From assembly GCA_040221055.1 (NCBI GenBank), contig JAVJVN010000011.1, positions 1 to 63,375 of the forward strand: a stretch of 63,375 nt of DNA, written 5' to 3'. This stretch comes from Rhodothermales bacterium. GTDB taxonomy: Bacteria; Bacteroidota; Rhodothermia; Rhodothermales; UBA10348. Below, piece by piece: positions 109 through 6,454 of the stretch. Numbering within the stretch: position 1 is the stretch's first letter; each line of letters starts with the position of its first letter. Under the pieces are notes generated by a model. It saw nothing but the letters and a program-made list of their open reading frames with translations. It was not told the origin of the DNA and ran no database searches. The position numbers and the translations under genes are program-made.

Positions 109-184
109 GTGTCCGTACGTCAGAATCGCACAGCTTAGGTCCCTCAAAGATCCTATCTGTTACCAAAATCGAATGAAGGCAGTT

Positions 185-1801
185 ATGATGACGAAATATG
201 TACTCTGCCTGTGCGCTCTCCTGGTTCTCTTCACGCATCCATGCGTTGCCCAGATCATGCGCTATGCTGAACGAACGACGCCCAATACGCTGAATCCTTA
301 TCAGATGCATAAGGAAAGAGGAGTTACAGAACGGCTGTATTCACTGTTGTATCAGGGACTCGTTCTCTACGATCCGGAGATCGAGCAGTCCGTTTCTCGG
401 TTAGCCAGTCACTGGGAGCCGGAACAGGGCGTTACCGAATCCTTGACCTTTCATATCAGGGAAGGAGCAATGTGGCACGATGGTACCCCGGTGACGGCCA
501 GAGACGTGGAGGTGACCTACAATAAATTGCTCAACAATATCAAAGTCCAGAATACGGAAACCGTGGAAACCGTACGAAGCATCGTCGAGAAGGTCACTCG
601 GCTGGGTAATACCGTCATCAAGTTTGACCTGGTTCGAAGTACCGACGTAAGTACCGCACTTCAATATTTTGAGCAGTGGATTGTACCTGCACATGCATTC
701 AATCCGGAAACGGGACTCGAAAATAGTCTGAACAACAGTTATCTCTCGGACCTGGCGATTGGTACTGGACCCTTTGCAATGCGCAAAAAAAAGAGTGCCA
801 ACGGGAACGTACAGATGACATCGTTCGATCGGACCGGAACGTGGGAATACTGGGGTGACGTCCCCAATCTGTCCGAGATTGAAATGTACGTTGAACCCGA
901 CCCGTTCAGCAGGGTCCAGAGTGCCTTGGCCGGGTCGGCAGAGTTGATTATTGACGTACCGGTCAGTCAAGTAGACCGCATCCAGAATGAGTCGGGCTGG
1001 ACGGTGAAAAAGTATGCGAACGATTCGTTCATTTCCTTGGCCGTCAACTTGAGCAATGCGAAACTTGCCAACGTCAAGGTGCGACAAGCCATGATGCATG
1101 CGATGGATCGTCTTGGCTTGTTGAAGACGCATTACCAAGGCAGGGGCACAATTCTGCATGCCCCTATGGTCCCGGGAACGCCTTTCAGTACCAACGACGT
1201 TGTCCGTTACGACCATGATGTTGACAAGGCCAAGGGGCTCCTCGCAGAAGCAGGCTTTTCCATAATTGGATCTTCAGGGATACGTCAAAATGCCGCTGGC
1301 GAGCGACTTGAATTCACGATGATAAGCTTCGTGGATGGCGCGGCAACCGAGACGACCCGCAGTAACGTGTTGGACACCATCGTGAATGAACTTGAAGATG
1401 TGGGTATCCGTGTCAACGTAGAACCCCTGGACTTCCCCGTGTACATAGAAAGGCTGCGATCATCCCGGGAATATGATTTGGCATGGTGGGCTCCTTCTTT
1501 CGATTCATCGTACAACATTACGAAGTTCTTTCACTCGAACTACAATGCGAAAGGACAGCCCAACTTCGTAGGCTATCAGAATAATCTCGTCGACCGATAT
1601 CTGGATGAATTCAATGCGGCAACAGATCCCCTGAGTCGAACAAGCAATATGGCTGCGGTCCTGAAAGAGTTGTCTCAAGATCTGCCATATCTGTACTTGT
1701 TGTCCATTGACAAATACTATGCGACGCACGTGAACCTGGCTGTGCCCAAGGTGCATCCCTTTTACTTCTTCTCATTTGTAGAAGTTTGGTCCAAGTTTTG
1801 A
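185..1801 (+). CDS. ABC importer periplasmic solute-binding protein, family 5 (oligopeptide/dipeptide type)
   Basis: About 538 residues, the usual length for DppA/OppA-like family 5 binding proteins. It should bind the imported peptide or similar ligand outside the inner membrane and deliver it to the permeases encoded next. The N-terminus is a signal peptide: a short basic start, hydrophobic LCLCALLVLF, then a CVA/Q cleavage site. There is no convincing lipobox, so the protein is probably soluble rather than lipid-anchored. Family features include an NTLNPYQ-type opening and a WHDGTPVTARDVEVTY stretch near residue 95. An in-frame ATG at 44 lies inside the hairpin; ATGs at 173, 185 and 188 better match the signal peptide and 185 is chosen. 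It leads a five-gene operon with overlapping neighbours. Base composition is more AT-rich than most of the window. The ligand cannot be read from sequence. Confidence 0.85.
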   Translation: MMTKYVLCLCALLVLFTHPCVAQIMRYAERTTPNTLNPYQMHKERGVTERLYSLLYQGLVLYDPEIEQSVSRLASHWEPEQGVTESLTFHIREGAMWHDGTPVTARDVEVTYNKLLNNIKVQNTETVETVRSIVEKVTRLGNTVIKFDLVRSTDVSTALQYFEQWIVPAHAFNPETGLENSLNNSYLSDLAIGTGPFAMRKKKSANGNVQMTSFDRTGTWEYWGDVPNLSEIEMYVEPDPFSRVQSALAGSAELIIDVPVSQVDRIQNESGWTVKKYANDSFISLAVNLSNAKLANVKVRQAMMHAMDRLGLLKTHYQGRGTILHAPMVPGTPFSTNDVVRYDHDVDKAKGLLAEAGFSIIGSSGIRQNAAGERLEFTMISFVDGAATETTRSNVLDTIVNELEDVGIRVNVEPLDFPVYIERLRSSREYDLAWWAPSFDSSYNITKFFHSNYNAKGQPNFVGYQNNLVDRYLDEFNAATDPLSRTSNMAAVLKELSQDLPYLYLLSIDKYYATHVNLAVPKVHPFYFFSFVEVWSKF

Positions 1802-2691
1802 AGGTGGGCCCAAACCTGGTAAGAGCGGGACTCCAGCTCGCGAGAATAGTCGTCATCGGCTTGGGAACGGCAGCAATCACGCTCCTTGTCGTCAGCTTAC
1901 TTTCCAACCCCCAGACGGGTCACGCTACATACTGGCAGCGCCTGTCGCTGTACTTCTCCGATGTTGTCGGAGGACTGTTCTCAGCAGATCGAAGTCGAAG
2001 TGGATTGAGTCTGCAGGACTTTGCCATCCGGACGTCTTGGACCCTCTACCTGGTTGTAGTATCCGGGCTGACAGTATGTACGATTGGAGTCCTGTTTGGA
2101 ATAGTACGATCCGTGACCGATCGCCGTATCCTATCGAAACTACTCCGGACAATGGTGCTGGCGATTACATTCATTCCACTATTAATCTGGTCCAATTATC
2201 TTCAACTGGTTTCCAGTGAGTGGTGGGGGATCAATGTAAATGCTTCTTTGAATGACCCGGGTCTAGCTTCCTACGGAGTGTTGATTATCCCATGTGCAGC
2301 ACTCGCGCTCAGTGATGGACTCATTGACCGGTTGGCCTCAACGGTGGAATTGGATCTGAGAAAGTTCTTCGCGTCGTCCTACTGTCTTGCCTTGAGGTCG
2401 CGCGGCGTCCCCCTGGTGACCCATGCGGCTCGGTCCATATTGCCGGGTGTCGCGTTTCAGACAGCCTCCATGCTCATTTATTTATTGGGCGCCAGTCTGG
2501 TCGTGGAGCACATATTCGCGATATATGGACTGTCCATGACATTATACCAGGCCATATTCGAGACGAGACAGTTCGATATTGTGGTTTACATATCAACGGC
2601 GTTCGTCCTGATTACATATGTCCTGCATGAAACCGGTCAGGCGGTTGCAGCGTGGGCCGATCCTCGTGAACGTCGGGTCCGGCATGGATAG
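1786..2691 (+). CDS. ABC importer permease, DppB/OppB-like
   Basis: About 300 residues with roughly six hydrophobic segments. The C-terminal half carries the binding-protein-dependent permease pattern, with the coupling-loop region (RSRGVPLVTHAARSILPGV) followed by the VVEHIFAIYGLS segment typical of DppB-type subunits. It should form the membrane channel with the next gene product. The listed start is a TTG overlapping the binding-protein gene by 16 bases. A TTG at 1798 overlapping the stop as TTGA, or GTG at 1804, are equally possible. The overlap implies translational coupling. It is somewhat divergent from textbook DppB, particularly in the first periplasmic region (residues 45-85). Confidence 0.85.
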   Translation: MVQVLKVGPNLVRAGLQLARIVVIGLGTAAITLLVVSLLSNPQTGHATYWQRLSLYFSDVVGGLFSADRSRSGLSLQDFAIRTSWTLYLVVVSGLTVCTIGVLFGIVRSVTDRRILSKLLRTMVLAITFIPLLIWSNYLQLVSSEWWGINVNASLNDPGLASYGVLIIPCAALALSDGLIDRLASTVELDLRKFFASSYCLALRSRGVPLVTHAARSILPGVAFQTASMLIYLLGASLVVEHIFAIYGLSMTLYQAIFETRQFDIVVYISTAFVLITYVLHETGQAVAAWADPRERRVRHG

Positions 2692-3898
2692 CTCCCGCAT
2701 GCGAAAGAGTCTGCCTGCATTGTTGGCGATTGGAATTCTCGTAGCATGGTCCGTTGCGGGTTTCTGGATATCCACTCCAAGGGATTCCAATAAGGACACC
2801 GTAGCGCCACCCGTGCATAGCATATTGCAGCGCAATATGGTCTCAACAGCGTCGTGGTATGAAGCCTATCCGGCGCGAAGAGCCTTCGAGTCCATCTTTG
2901 ATGATGTGTTCGGTTCAGAGTGCGATGTTGACAGCAGTATGGTGGATAAAGGCTCTTCAAGCCTCCTATCACGTATTGCCGCCCCCCCGTCTTTTGTAGC
3001 CATTGTCGGGCAACCCTATGTCTATGATACGGGTCTGGAATGGGACGACGCATGCATTGTCTCGGCACCTGACGGAGTCAGTATCGAGGGTGGGGTTTTG
3101 CGATGGACACCTCTGTCAAAAGACATGGATTATGCAAGCCAGGAAAAAAACTTCAAGGTCGGCTATTTCAGGGGAGACTCCGCGGGCGTCGTACAGGAAT
3201 ACAGGGTCAAAGTGACATCAGAGTCGTTCCTGCTGGGGACCGATTTACGTGGACGCCCGATCTCCAACCTGATTATTCGAGCTGGTCGCTGGATAATACT
3301 GCCCGGACTTGTCGCCGTACTTGGCATCCTTCTATTTGGGCTTATTCCTGGCGTATTGGCAGGTTATCGCGGTGGTCGACCGGATGCAATCGTGTCTTCT
3401 TTTGCTCAGGTCTCTGAATCGGTACCGATCATCATTGTATTGGTTGTGGTAGCTATTGTAACTGGAATGAATATATATGCAACCATGTTTGTTGTCGGAA
3501 TGATATTGGCACCAGGTGCGGCAAGGGATATTAAGGCCAGGGTGCGATCATTGAATGAAAACCAGTTTATAGAATCTGCAAGAGAACTGGGCTTGTCTGA
3601 GAAAAGAGTGATATGGAGTGAAGTGGTTTGGTACAATTGCATGGATGTCATAACCAAACATGTCTTTGCTGTGCTTCTGTTTTCCGTGGTGGTCGAAATA
3701 ACGTTGAGCTATCTCAAGGTGGGGCTACCGGAATCTGAGATCAGCCTCGGCGGACTGATTCTTGCAGGACGAGCTTTGGCATTCAACCAAGGGGCATATT
3801 GGTTGCTGGCGCTCTCCTGTGGTGCCACGATTGCTGCAATGGGGTTGTTCGCTATGGCTGGTAATGCGGTCACTGAATTCTTCAAACGGGGCGAATGA
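2684..3898 (+). CDS. ABC importer permease, DppC/OppC-like, with extra periplasmic Ig-like domain
   Basis: About 404 residues, roughly 100 more than usual for DppC. The first membrane segment is at residues 11-29 and the family GTDLRGRP motif at 185-192. Five further hydrophobic segments and the coupling loop (ESARELGLSEKRV) follow. Between the first segment and the GTD motif lies a periplasmic insertion of about 150 residues. Residues 101-178 read like a putative Ig/cadherin-like (He_PIG type) module: GQPYVYD, a central PDGVSI, then LRWTP and a closing YRVKV strand. The start at 2684 gives an 8-base overlap with the previous gene; an upstream ATG at 2618 would need a 74-base overlap. The permease assignment is firm. 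The Ig-like label is from motif resemblance only. Confidence 0.82.
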   Translation: MDSSRMRKSLPALLAIGILVAWSVAGFWISTPRDSNKDTVAPPVHSILQRNMVSTASWYEAYPARRAFESIFDDVFGSECDVDSSMVDKGSSSLLSRIAAPPSFVAIVGQPYVYDTGLEWDDACIVSAPDGVSIEGGVLRWTPLSKDMDYASQEKNFKVGYFRGDSAGVVQEYRVKVTSESFLLGTDLRGRPISNLIIRAGRWIILPGLVAVLGILLFGLIPGVLAGYRGGRPDAIVSSFAQVSESVPIIIVLVVVAIVTGMNIYATMFVVGMILAPGAARDIKARVRSLNENQFIESARELGLSEKRVIWSEVVWYNCMDVITKHVFAVLLFSVVVEITLSYLKVGLPESEISLGGLILAGRALAFNQGAYWLLALSCGATIAAMGLFAMAGNAVTEFFKRGE

Positions 3899-3901
3899 GC
3901 C

Positions 3902-4726
3902 ATGGAATACGCCGCAGTACCCGAACAACTCAGCGTAGGCAACCTGTGTGTAGACGTCAAGAGTGACGGTGGTCTGAAGCGCGTGGTGTCTGATGTCGGT
4001 TTCTCACTTCGTGAGGGAGGTCGCCTTGGAATAGCCGGCGAATCCGGCTCGGGAAAAACACAGCTTTTGCGGGCTTTGCAAGGAGTCAGTCAAGGGACGG
4101 TGAGCGGAACAATGATATTCGAGGGGGCCGAGGTTGAAGTGGCGAAACCTCTTCCGTTTGTTCTCAGACGGCGTAAACGTTCATCGGATAGCCGCTACCG
4201 GATGGGAATGGTTTTCCAGGAACCGCAGGCTTCATTTTCGCCGTATCAGACGGTACTTGATCATGCACACGACACGGCGGCATCAGCCGAAGGGCAACAA
4301 GCAGACATCAAATTGCATGTGGAGTCCACCCTTTGTGCCAGACTGAGCGAGTTGGGATTCGCGTCTCCGGAAGCCTATTTGGGGAAATATCCTCATGAGT
4401 TGAGCGGAGGAGAAGCCCAGAGGGTTACTATTGCACTCGCATTGATGATGGAGCCGCGTCTGATTCTGGCGGATGAACCCACTACGCAATTGGATGCGCT
4501 CATTCAAGTCCAGGTCCTTGAGCTTCTTGATACCGTCATTCGTGACAAGGCACTCTCTCTTATCCTTGTCTCACACGACCTGGCGGTACTCGGCAAAATG
4601 GTCGATCGCATTCTGGTTCTCAAGAATGGGCAAGTAGTAGACTATTCGGATACTCAGGAAATTCTGTTCGGGCCCATTGAGGCCTTGCATCCCTATACCC
4701 AAACCCTCCGTCGGGCGGTAGAATGA
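3902..4726 (+). CDS. ABC importer ATPase, DppD/OppD-like
   Basis: 274 residues. It should power import by ATP hydrolysis on the cytoplasmic face, paired with the next ATPase. All nucleotide-binding motifs are visible: Walker A GESGSGKT, Q-loop VFQEPQASFSP, signature LSGGEAQ, Walker B LILADEP and the switch histidine in SHDL. The gene starts 3 bases after the permease stop. It ends in an ATGA overlap with the next ATPase gene. The C-terminal extension typical of DppD (iron-sulphur or oligopeptide/dipeptide C-terminal domain) is short here, so the protein is at the small end of the family. Confidence 0.87.
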   Translation: MEYAAVPEQLSVGNLCVDVKSDGGLKRVVSDVGFSLREGGRLGIAGESGSGKTQLLRALQGVSQGTVSGTMIFEGAEVEVAKPLPFVLRRRKRSSDSRYRMGMVFQEPQASFSPYQTVLDHAHDTAASAEGQQADIKLHVESTLCARLSELGFASPEAYLGKYPHELSGGEAQRVTIALALMMEPRLILADEPTTQLDALIQVQVLELLDTVIRDKALSLILVSHDLAVLGKMVDRILVLKNGQVVDYSDTQEILFGPIEALHPYTQTLRRAVE

Positions 4727-5547
4727 GCGAAGGAAATATTGTACAGGTACAGTCACTAAGTGCGTCATACCGGAACGGCTATGTTGGTGGAAAAAACATG
4801 GGTGAAGAGCGTAAAGCGGCGCTCAGGAATATATCCCTCAATGTCGCGTACGGGGAAGTATTCGGAATTGTAGGCGAGAGTGGTAGCGGAAAATCAACGC
4901 TCGTCCGATCTCTCCTCAGATTACATGAACCGGATGCCGGGAGTGTACAGATAGCAGGATTGGATGTAATGCGTCTGGACACGGAGCAGCTGAGAATTCG
5001 GCTCCGACGCGTCGCCAGACTGATGTACCAGCATCCGGACTCTTCTTTGAACCCTGGTATGACGGTTCGTGATATCCTGCTTCAGTGCACAAGGCTGCAT
5101 CGTTCCGACTTGGATGACGTTTCGGCTCTCAAGGAAATATTGGATTTCCTTGAGAGCGTAGGGCTGGACGGCAGTTACCTGGGTAGATGGCCAGGAGGAT
5201 TGAGTGGAGGCGAAAAGCGGAGGATAGCCATGTGCCGTTCCCTGCTGTCCCGTCCCCGTGTATTGTTCGCAGATGAACCGACATCAGGGCTCGATGCCGC
5301 AACGCAGGAGAGCTTTCTTCGCGTACTTATCCGCCTCAAGGAACAGCTCAAGCTTACAGTGGTCGTGATATCCCACGACTTGGGCCTCATTGGTCGAATA
5401 TGCAATCGGGTCGCCGTGATGAAGGCAGGCGAGATTGTGGACACATTGAATCGAGAACAGATCTTGCGGCGCGAGTCCAATCACGCGTATGTCCGAGACT
5501 TACTGGCTGCGCATCTGAAGTTGTCTGACCTTCAGGCTGAACCGTGA
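4723..5547 (+). CDS. ABC importer ATPase, DppF/OppF-like
   Basis: 274 residues, second ATPase of the importer. Motifs: Walker A GESGSGKST, Q-loop LMYQHPDSSLNPGMT, signature LSGGEKRR, Walker B VLFADEPTSGLD and switch histidine in ISHDLGL. The start overlaps the preceding stop as ATGA, so the pair is translationally coupled. This is the last gene of the operon; the next gene is convergent and only 10 bases away, with no recognisable terminator between them. A perfect 14-base-pair inverted repeat lies inside the gene at 5125-5157, just before the signature motif. Confidence 0.87.
   Translation: MSEGNIVQVQSLSASYRNGYVGGKNMGEERKAALRNISLNVAYGEVFGIVGESGSGKSTLVRSLLRLHEPDAGSVQIAGLDVMRLDTEQLRIRLRRVARLMYQHPDSSLNPGMTVRDILLQCTRLHRSDLDDVSALKEILDFLESVGLDGSYLGRWPGGLSGGEKRRIAMCRSLLSRPRVLFADEPTSGLDAATQESFLRVLIRLKEQLKLTVVVISHDLGLIGRICNRVAVMKAGEIVDTLNREQILRRESNHAYVRDLLAAHLKLSDLQAEP
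5125..5157. repeat. Perfect 14-bp inverted repeat inside the DppF-like gene
   Basis: GCTCTCAAGGAAAT (5125-5138) and its exact reverse complement ATTTCCTTGAGAGC (5144-5157) flank a 5-base loop. It encodes part of a helix before the signature motif. No T-run follows on either strand, so it is not a simple intrinsic terminator. A stable mRNA hairpin is the direct prediction; function unknown. Confidence 0.75.
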
Positions 5548-5557
5548 TATTCTGGCA

Positions 5558-6454
5558 TCATTCGCGATTCCGGTATCGTTTGTTGTTACTCTCAAGGCTT
5601 CGCGGTGTCAGAATTATGAACGGTTCCACGAAATGATGGTCGTCCTCGAATGAAATGATGACCTCTTCGCCTACGAGTTTATACGTACCATAGGCTACGG
5701 TCGGTTTGACGGATTCCCAATCGGACGGGAAAGTCGTCAGTGTCCAATGTCCGCTTCTCGTTTCCGGCAGCCAGCGCCTAAACCACTCAAACGTTCCGTC
5801 ATCACGTAGCAGTATCCAATACGTGTCGCCAAATTCAGAATCAGACTCAAAACGGCCCATCTTCAGCATTGCTGCGTTGTTACGTCCTGGTTGGTCAACC
5901 TGATCAATCTCATCGGGCTGGAATAACGGTTCAACTGGCTCTTCGTCGTAAATCAAGGAGTTGTCAAATGTCGCATCTGGGTATTCTGGCGCGGGTTGGT
6001 AATAAAGAAAGTCATCATATCTTCTGTCAAGCCATCTGAGAAATGATATGGATGTCATTTCGCTTACCAGCTTGCGATTATCGGTGTTGGTTGCCAAGAG
6101 AATACTGAATAGAAAATCAGACAAACTGACAGAGTTTCCAAGCGGACCGACACCGGAGATTATGCGCTCTATCGTGATGGGGCACTCCATGAATACGGAA
6201 TCCAACGCCTGGTGAGTGAACTCGCTGATCATTCCGCCAAATACTTGGTCAAACATGCTTTCGGAACGCACGTTTCCTGTTCGTTCTGTTTGTATATCCC
6301 TCCGGTATTCGTTGAGGTAAACAGAATACAATCCTTGATATGTCTGAAAGAATTGTTGGGCATTTGCAGCGCACGATTCACGTTGCGCGTGCGCGTCATG
6401 GTATTTAAGAAAGTTCGCGAGGAGAAAAACAGCGAGCAGGAATCGCATATTCAT
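5558..6454 (-). CDS. Secreted protein of unknown function
   Basis: 298 residues, family not recognised. The N-terminus is a signal peptide (FLLAVFLLANFL, then AHA/Q cleavage). The mature protein is acidic with a proline- and acid-rich middle (EEPVEPLFQPDEIDQ). The C-terminal 100 residues have a repeated beta-strand rhythm (GTFEWF, SGHWTL, YGTYKLVGEEVIISF) that resembles small lipocalin- or META-like barrels, but this is only an impression. It is convergent with the importer operon and shares its low GC content. A second ATG at 6448 is an alternative start. A link to the importer is possible but unproven. Confidence 0.6.
   Translation of the reverse strand: MNMRFLLAVFLLANFLKYHDAHAQRESCAANAQQFFQTYQGLYSVYLNEYRRDIQTERTGNVRSESMFDQVFGGMISEFTHQALDSVFMECPITIERIISGVGPLGNSVSLSDFLFSILLATNTDNRKLVSEMTSISFLRWLDRRYDDFLYYQPAPEYPDATFDNSLIYDEEPVEPLFQPDEIDQVDQPGRNNAAMLKMGRFESDSEFGDTYWILLRDDGTFEWFRRWLPETRSGHWTLTTFPSDWESVKPTVAYGTYKLVGEEVIISFEDDHHFVEPFIILTPRSLESNNKRYRNRE

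Follow-up and report, generated by a model that had tools for sequence, protein, structure and literature searches.

The window, that is, the whole stretch of 63,375 nucleotides analyzed here (a Rhodothermales contig, referred to below as C11, of genome G000), begins with an importer operon of five tight genes encoding a binding protein, a B subunit, a C subunit and two ATPases, as identified from open reading frames and matches to Pfam and NCBIfam. The genes and the features within them are as follows.

173..1801, + strand: family-5 substrate-binding protein with signal peptide (SBP_bac_5, 188.1 bits)
1786..2691, + strand: DppB-like permease subunit (B subunit), 301 aa (Opp1B-type NCBIfam match, 5.7e-11)
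1903..1935, + strand: site of the shortened scoop in the B subunit (alignment of 30 B subunits)
2684..3898, + strand: DppC-like permease subunit (C subunit) with Ig insert, 404 aa (ORF, Pfam, NCBIfam and structural matches)
2711..2770, + strand: TM1 of the C subunit, about residues 10-29 (hydropathy; model helix 3-26, low confidence)
2780..2971, + strand: linker from TM1 to the Ig domain, residues 33-96, with a PPxxxxLQR motif (sequence and family alignment)
2972..3229, + strand: Ig/cadherin-like (He_PIG-type) domain, residues 97-182 of the C subunit (family profiles and predicted fold)
3236..3259, + strand: GTDLRGRP motif ahead of TM2, residues 185-192 of the C subunit (conserved alignment columns)
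3572..3592, + strand: EAA-type coupling motif ESARELG, residues 297-303 of the C subunit (conserved alignment columns)
3902..4726, + strand: first ATPase, DppD-like, 274 aa (ABC_tran, 87.7 bits)
4723..5547, + strand: second ATPase, DppF/NikE-like, 274 aa (ABC_tran, 101.4 bits)

The mechanical open reading frame of the binding protein spans 44-1801, and the start at 173 was judged likely by eye; its best PDB relatives are family-5 binding proteins (e.g. 8efz, and AppA 1xoc). The B subunit scores 22.1 bits against Pfam BPD_transp_1, which is under the cut-off, and clusters with 10 cassette B subunits. Both ATPases carry the Walker A, signature, Walker B and H-loop patterns, with all four motifs intact. 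Directly after the operon, on the opposite strand (5558-6454, - strand), lies a gene for a 298-aa protein with a signal-peptide-like start, for which a Pfam search up to E = 10 gave no match.

The C subunit is a family-5 (Dpp/Opp/Nik) ABC importer subunit with an ordinary permease core. BPD_transp_1 is matched at residues 220-399 (31.2 bits against a cut-off of 26.4), and the top 13 structural matches of the C-subunit model are all Dpp/Opp permease chains from E. coli and M. tuberculosis, with Z ranging from 21.7 to 20.6 (21.7 to OppC, 21.5 to DppC) and the first row below them at Z 15.5. No curated NCBIfam equivalog is reached, the best being Opp4C at 96.2 bits against a cut-off of 350, so the protein is assigned to the family and to no named subtype. 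The E. coli DppABCDF and OppABCDF systems share with the window importer the five-gene layout, the permease core fold, the motifs and a family-5 binding protein, but E. coli DppC, OppC and NikC have loops of 19-23 residues without an Ig domain, and their B partners keep the scoop. A further difference concerns the 4Fe-4S domains described for E. coli DppD and DppF (PMC12136057), which are absent from the Pfam families matched by the window ATPases (10 of 10 families for the first, the best 25 of 28 for the second).

The preliminary description of this DNA had placed about 150 extra residues between TM1 and the GTDLRGRP motif, and the loop measures 152 residues, compared with 23 in E. coli DppC, 19 in OppC and 20 in NikC. 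The loop of E. coli YejE has 79 residues; YejE and GsiD are unmatched by the motif pattern used for measuring loops, and GsiD was judged by eye from its sequence. As the preliminary description had expected of well-studied DppC proteins, the same insert is absent from the five C subunits of E. coli K-12 (Dpp, Opp, Nik, Gsi and Yej). Its more general statement that DppC loops are normally short is borne out by E. coli DppC, OppC and NikC and by the window's own family, where 11 of 11 measured non-Ig permeases (L004-L014) have loops of 13-25 residues, but fails in the wider phylum, where all 26 best-hit loci (L026-L051) have loops of 72-118 residues of other sequence. The possibility that the insert is simply typical of the phylum was rejected, because two profiles built from 19 of these 26 loops are unrelated to the Ig inserts (hhalign probability 0.2 each). 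The two phylum loop groups may themselves be related to each other (hhalign probability 64.8).

From the topology, comprising a basic N-terminus, an insert after TM1 and a DppC/OppC-like core, we infer that the insert is periplasmic. Assignment of all of the approximately 150 residues to an Ig fold was rejected, since the first 64 or so after TM1 form a low-confidence linker (pLDDT mostly <50 in the whole-protein model), leaving an Ig module of about 86 residues. Predicted alone with AlphaFold, residues ~97-182 form a seven-stranded beta sandwich with a mean pLDDT of 80.3; in the whole-protein model the pLDDT of this region is ~60-75. The best VIA rows for the isolated domain are a fucoidanase domain (Z 8.6) and dystroglycan (Z 8.5), values to be read with the tool's warning that Z of 7-8 is common. 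A Foldseek search with the isolated domain gave no match at E <= 0.001, the best rows being dystroglycan and Rib domains, and a six-row profile of the inserts matched Rib and SraP domains in the PDB at E ~5e-4 from sequence alone.

The window insert has no Pfam match up to E = 10, searched alone or within the whole protein, and a Pfam search with the insert of G012 (P0003) likewise gave no He_PIG match. The insert of G031 (P0002), by contrast, is recognized as He_PIG (PF05345) at 27.0 bits against a cut-off of 24, and four of eight family members match He_PIG at E <= 1. The window domain scores 97 bits against a profile of eight family inserts, the window copy itself being among the eight. Identity between the window permease and seven aligned relatives is 25-31% overall, while the inserts diverge fast, with 13-22% identity to that of the window (five aligned inserts, four relatives). 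Recurrence of the insert in other genomes, the He_PIG matches and the predicted beta sandwich together show that the Ig insert is more than a chance resemblance, and the label Ig/cadherin-like is supported for the family by profiles and predicted fold. The Ig/He_PIG module of the preliminary description stands as a predicted Ig-like fold at about residues 97-182 with a relative that passes the He_PIG cut-off, and not as a Pfam match of the window copy. The domain shares with He_PIG/dystroglycan-type cadherin-like domains the predicted fold and the Pfam match in relatives; unlike these, the window copy sits inside a membrane permease and below Pfam detection. Among the matches listed in a search of open-licence PMC articles, no description of an Ig domain in an OppC/DppC-type permease was found in titles or the beginnings of abstracts.

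A contig scan with the window permease (P0001) alone found no homologue, and a scan with a three-row alignment found eight loci, five with long inserts (L015-L019) and three ordinary (L020-L022). In total, nine genomes contain an Ig-type permease: G000 itself; G012, of the same family; G031, of the same order, whose protein is identical to one on the MAG contig JAUIDY010000107.1, labelled Rhodothermia; G160, of the same class; G466 (CANGXD010000004.1, Gemmatimonadaceae, Gemmatimonadota) and G619, of the same phylum as G466; G468 (JANQNV010000233.1, Longimicrobiales); G467 (JANXLV010000352.1, a MAG labelled Myxococcales); and G465 (JAGLOF010000017.1, labelled only as bacterium). The insert is a clear Ig-type module in eight of the nine. 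The exception is G465, in which pieces of the insert match the Ig profile in another order (20.2, 3.2 and -0.5 bits), so that its fold is unsure; in this permease (L016 4656-4955) the WTP-motif block precedes the one containing the first-strand motif, as would result from a rearrangement of the domain. The permease loop of G468 contains two tandem Ig-type copies (L019 7440-7697 and 7776-8057), the first of which scores 33.1 bits against a profile containing only the second.

The Ig-type permease is rare across the surveyed order, class and phyla. Matches were obtained in 3 of 114 genomes of the window's order (none in the three other genomes of its genus), 4 of 244 of its class, 3 of 249 of the phylum of G466 (one of them, G673, without the insert), 2 of 235 of the phylum of G467 (one, G971, without the insert) and 1 of 82 of the phylum of G465, at strict thresholds of 1e-45 to 1e-60, under which diverged members may go unnoticed. 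In a search of the window's phylum at 1e-20, 177 of 394 genomes matched, and among the matches listed, four start at query position <=16 and the rest at >=151.

In a tree of permease cores (41 rows, after 13 redundant phylum rows had been dropped), all nine Ig-type permeases form one clade with support of 100/99; G465 is its deepest branch, and G673 and G971 are the nearest relatives outside it. Long branches lead to the permeases of the window and G012, which pair with each other in a grouping that is unsure. G467 groups with G466 (99/96; L018 locus), and its Myxococcales label may therefore reflect transfer or a mislabelled contig.

The partner B subunit is altered in the same clade. In E. 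coli DppB, the scoop lies between TM1 and a short helix and occupies the cleft of DppA; its deletion lowers ATPase activity to about a quarter, from which the authors infer that the scoop helps efficient import (PMC12136057). Thirty B subunits were aligned, namely the nine Ig partners, five from E. coli K-12, the B subunits of G673 and G971, and 14 whose genes neighbour other permeases (from the flanks of 40 loci, 26 of which gave none). The segment matching DppB 32-63 has 8, 8, 9, 9, 10, 10, 11, 20 and 22 residues in the Ig partners, with 10 in the window, compared with 32 in E. coli DppB; the two longest belong to G468 and G012 (20 and 22 residues). All 21 other B subunits have 28-34 residues, or 69 in YejB, and the nearest non-Ig relatives keep the segment (G673, 32; G971, 28). 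Judged from this alignment, the scoop of the B partner is lost in part or mostly in nine of nine Ig operons. A long C-subunit loop by itself is compatible with a retained scoop, as in both long-loop non-Ig pairs available (YejE/YejB and L047). The p value of 1e-5 for the difference in scoop length assumes independent rows, and the comparison is actually of one clade with several near-copies. Since gain of the Ig domain and loss of the scoop are confined to one clade, they count as one joint event, not nine.

MalF of MalFGK2 likewise has a folded domain in the periplasm at the equivalent position of its permease core; this domain, P2, contacts MalE. In two structures, the first aligned pairs between the C-subunit model and MalF are 181 with 262 and 47 with 91 (chains 9nxc_H and 9bcr_H, assigned to MalF by their numbering). 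The MalF domain comprises 180 residues between TM3 and TM4 (PMC2246101). MalF is absent among the best 50 structural rows listed by VIA for the isolated domain, which by itself leaves room for a fold relation to P2; the likeness to P2 described here is one of position. MalFGK2 also differs in belonging to the sugar-importer family and in having a scoop on MalG besides P2 on MalF (PMC8134467). A second parallel is provided by Thermotogales MalG1 and MalG2, with a hydrophilic region of ~500 aa between TM1 and TM2; these are again sugar-importer subunits, and the region is reported to be without similarity to known proteins in the account cited here (PMC2246101).

The preliminary description had suggested that the domain could dock the binding protein, which seemed to lack a lipid anchor. 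The missing anchor carries little weight, since no lipobox-like pattern was found in the first 75 residues of 10 of the 11 binding proteins compared, and the sole match (LSSC at residues 7-10 in G012) falls within what is probably a signal peptide; diderm bacteria usually have soluble binding proteins. The dipeptide contacts R383 and D436 of DppA have no counterpart in any of the 11 cassette binding proteins, and perhaps the ligand is not a plain dipeptide; neither residue has a counterpart in E. coli OppA, GsiB or NikA.

Because the window starts at base 1 of contig C11, the genes upstream of the importer lie outside it. A propeller profile made from relatives has a match (1.1e-54) at the end of C8, another contig of the same genome, while a search of this genome with the G012 secreted protein alone gave no match. 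The order of genes at the end of C8 is FGE-sulfatase-like, VWA, Hanks kinase, FHA and PP2C, followed by the cassette genes, which encode two lipoprotein-like proteins (a small one, then a larger one), the propeller and the secreted protein, and then the contig end. The first five lie in a row upstream of the cassette (L082 5400-13302). No 12-mer is common to the final 300 bases of C8 and the initial 300 bases of C11, and the adjacency of the two contigs is thus deduced from gene order in relatives.

G160, G466, G467, G468 and G619 share the order lipoprotein, propeller, secreted protein, importer, and in G012 the propeller and the secreted protein are separated by an ORF of 610 aa. The G465 contig stops past the secreted protein. 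In G031, the next ORF on the upstream side of the secreted protein (L015 2-2311) is partial, with 769 aa, runs off the contig and does not match the propeller profile. The secreted protein belongs to one sequence family in six of the nine Ig genomes and in G673, weakly also in G971, and agrees by position only in G000, G012 and G160. A single TPR-like family of secreted proteins throughout was rejected, as the sequence family covers only these six Ig genomes, and the secreted proteins of G012, G160 and G000 have no TPR match in Pfam at the cut-offs used. G673 has the propeller and the secreted protein without the Ig domain; their counterparts in G971 are weaker relatives, of which the propeller-like one lies downstream.

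Docking of the binding protein by the Ig region appears plausible, and more so for the loss of the scoop: it is favoured because the element shortened in the partner B subunit is the very one that E. coli DppABCDF inserts into the cleft of its binding protein. Loss on the B subunit and gain on the C subunit in one lineage suggest that the Ig region took over the contact. The tentative reading that we prefer, while giving it somewhat less than an even chance, is that the element engaging the binding protein moved between the permease subunits of a family-5 importer. The C subunit would have gained a linker and an Ig/cadherin-like domain between TM1 and TM2 as the scoop of the B subunit was shortened. 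Tethered close to TM2 at the periplasmic mouth, the Ig domain would catch and orient the loaded binding protein, much as MalF P2 does for maltose-binding protein, and so replace the scoop contact; ATP-driven opening would then deliver the ligand into an ordinary DppBC-type pore. Probable partners of the importer would be the lipoprotein, the propeller and the secreted protein, whose genes directly precede its own, and in the window's class a Hanks kinase/FHA/PP2C switch probably controls it. The coexistence of the MalG scoop and MalF P2 in MalFGK2 (PMC8134467) indicates that one need not replace the other.

A rather unlikely alternative is that the Ig domain acts as a scaffold to the envelope proteins of the cassette, in a trans-envelope machine for uptake or sensing, with the binding protein docking without it. 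Detection of the propeller and lipoprotein upstream in seven of the nine Ig genomes fits such a role, as does the presence in the same cluster of a kinase, PP2C and FHA or FHA-related protein in G000, G012 and G160, but the cassette also exists without the Ig domain (G673, and G971 with weaker relatives), and a scaffold role does not itself explain the loss of the scoop. That loss, together with retention of the insert in nine of nine clade members over deep divergence, also makes it improbable that the insert has no docking role and is tolerated as a decoration or spacer in a freely varying loop, as might be supposed from the unrelated 72-118-residue loops in 26 of 26 measured phylum homologues and from an insert that diverges fast, is doubled in G468 and is scrambled in G465. 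Binding of the cargo itself, or of a glycan or surface partner, so as to feed a large ligand to the importer is more improbable still: the fold matches include fucoidanase, sialidase and adhesin domains, but the Ig-type fold is common and a shared fold shows no function, and the missing counterparts of DppA R383 and D436 in all 11 cassette binding proteins, which would fit this reading, are equally missing in OppA, GsiB and NikA of E. coli. On the preferred reading, exchange of the scoop contact for an Ig contact, the Ig clade may receive its cargo differently from known importers. The case bears on how the permeases of family-5 importers recognize their binding proteins and on whether delivery needs the scoop: a natural lineage seems to have cut back the scoop and added to the other subunit a domain that is separable and foldable, which opens the exchange to direct testing.

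The kinase, FHA protein and PP2C on C8 look like a phospho-signalling module. In G000, G012 and G160, the sole PP2C_2 match of the genome lies in the cassette cluster, at ~9, 12 and 9 kb, respectively, from the permease (in G000, across the inferred contig join); roughly estimated, the chance for one random gene to fall within 12 kb on either side is <1% per genome. FHA is confirmed by Pfam in G000 and G012, and G160 has a homolog of the G000 FHA protein. The sole Pkinase match of G160 is also in the cluster, while G000 has 13 such matches and G012 has 9. In G466, G468 and G971, PP2C matches lie on other contigs (3, 2 and 9, respectively), and kinase matches are so numerous (54, 18 and 75) that a neighbouring kinase there proves little. 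The broader proposition that the lineage exchanged the DppB scoop for a DppC Ig domain within a trans-envelope cassette that, in the window's class, is run by the kinase, FHA protein and sole PP2C of the genome as a phospho-regulated machine for uptake or sensing, is an unlikely one. For this transporter, possibly controlled by Ser/Thr phosphorylation, the cassette suggests candidate partners. Read through one TAG, which makes its gene start or frame uncertain, a second Pkinase match lies near the cassette at L082 1872-2618 (G000:C8:17871-18617).
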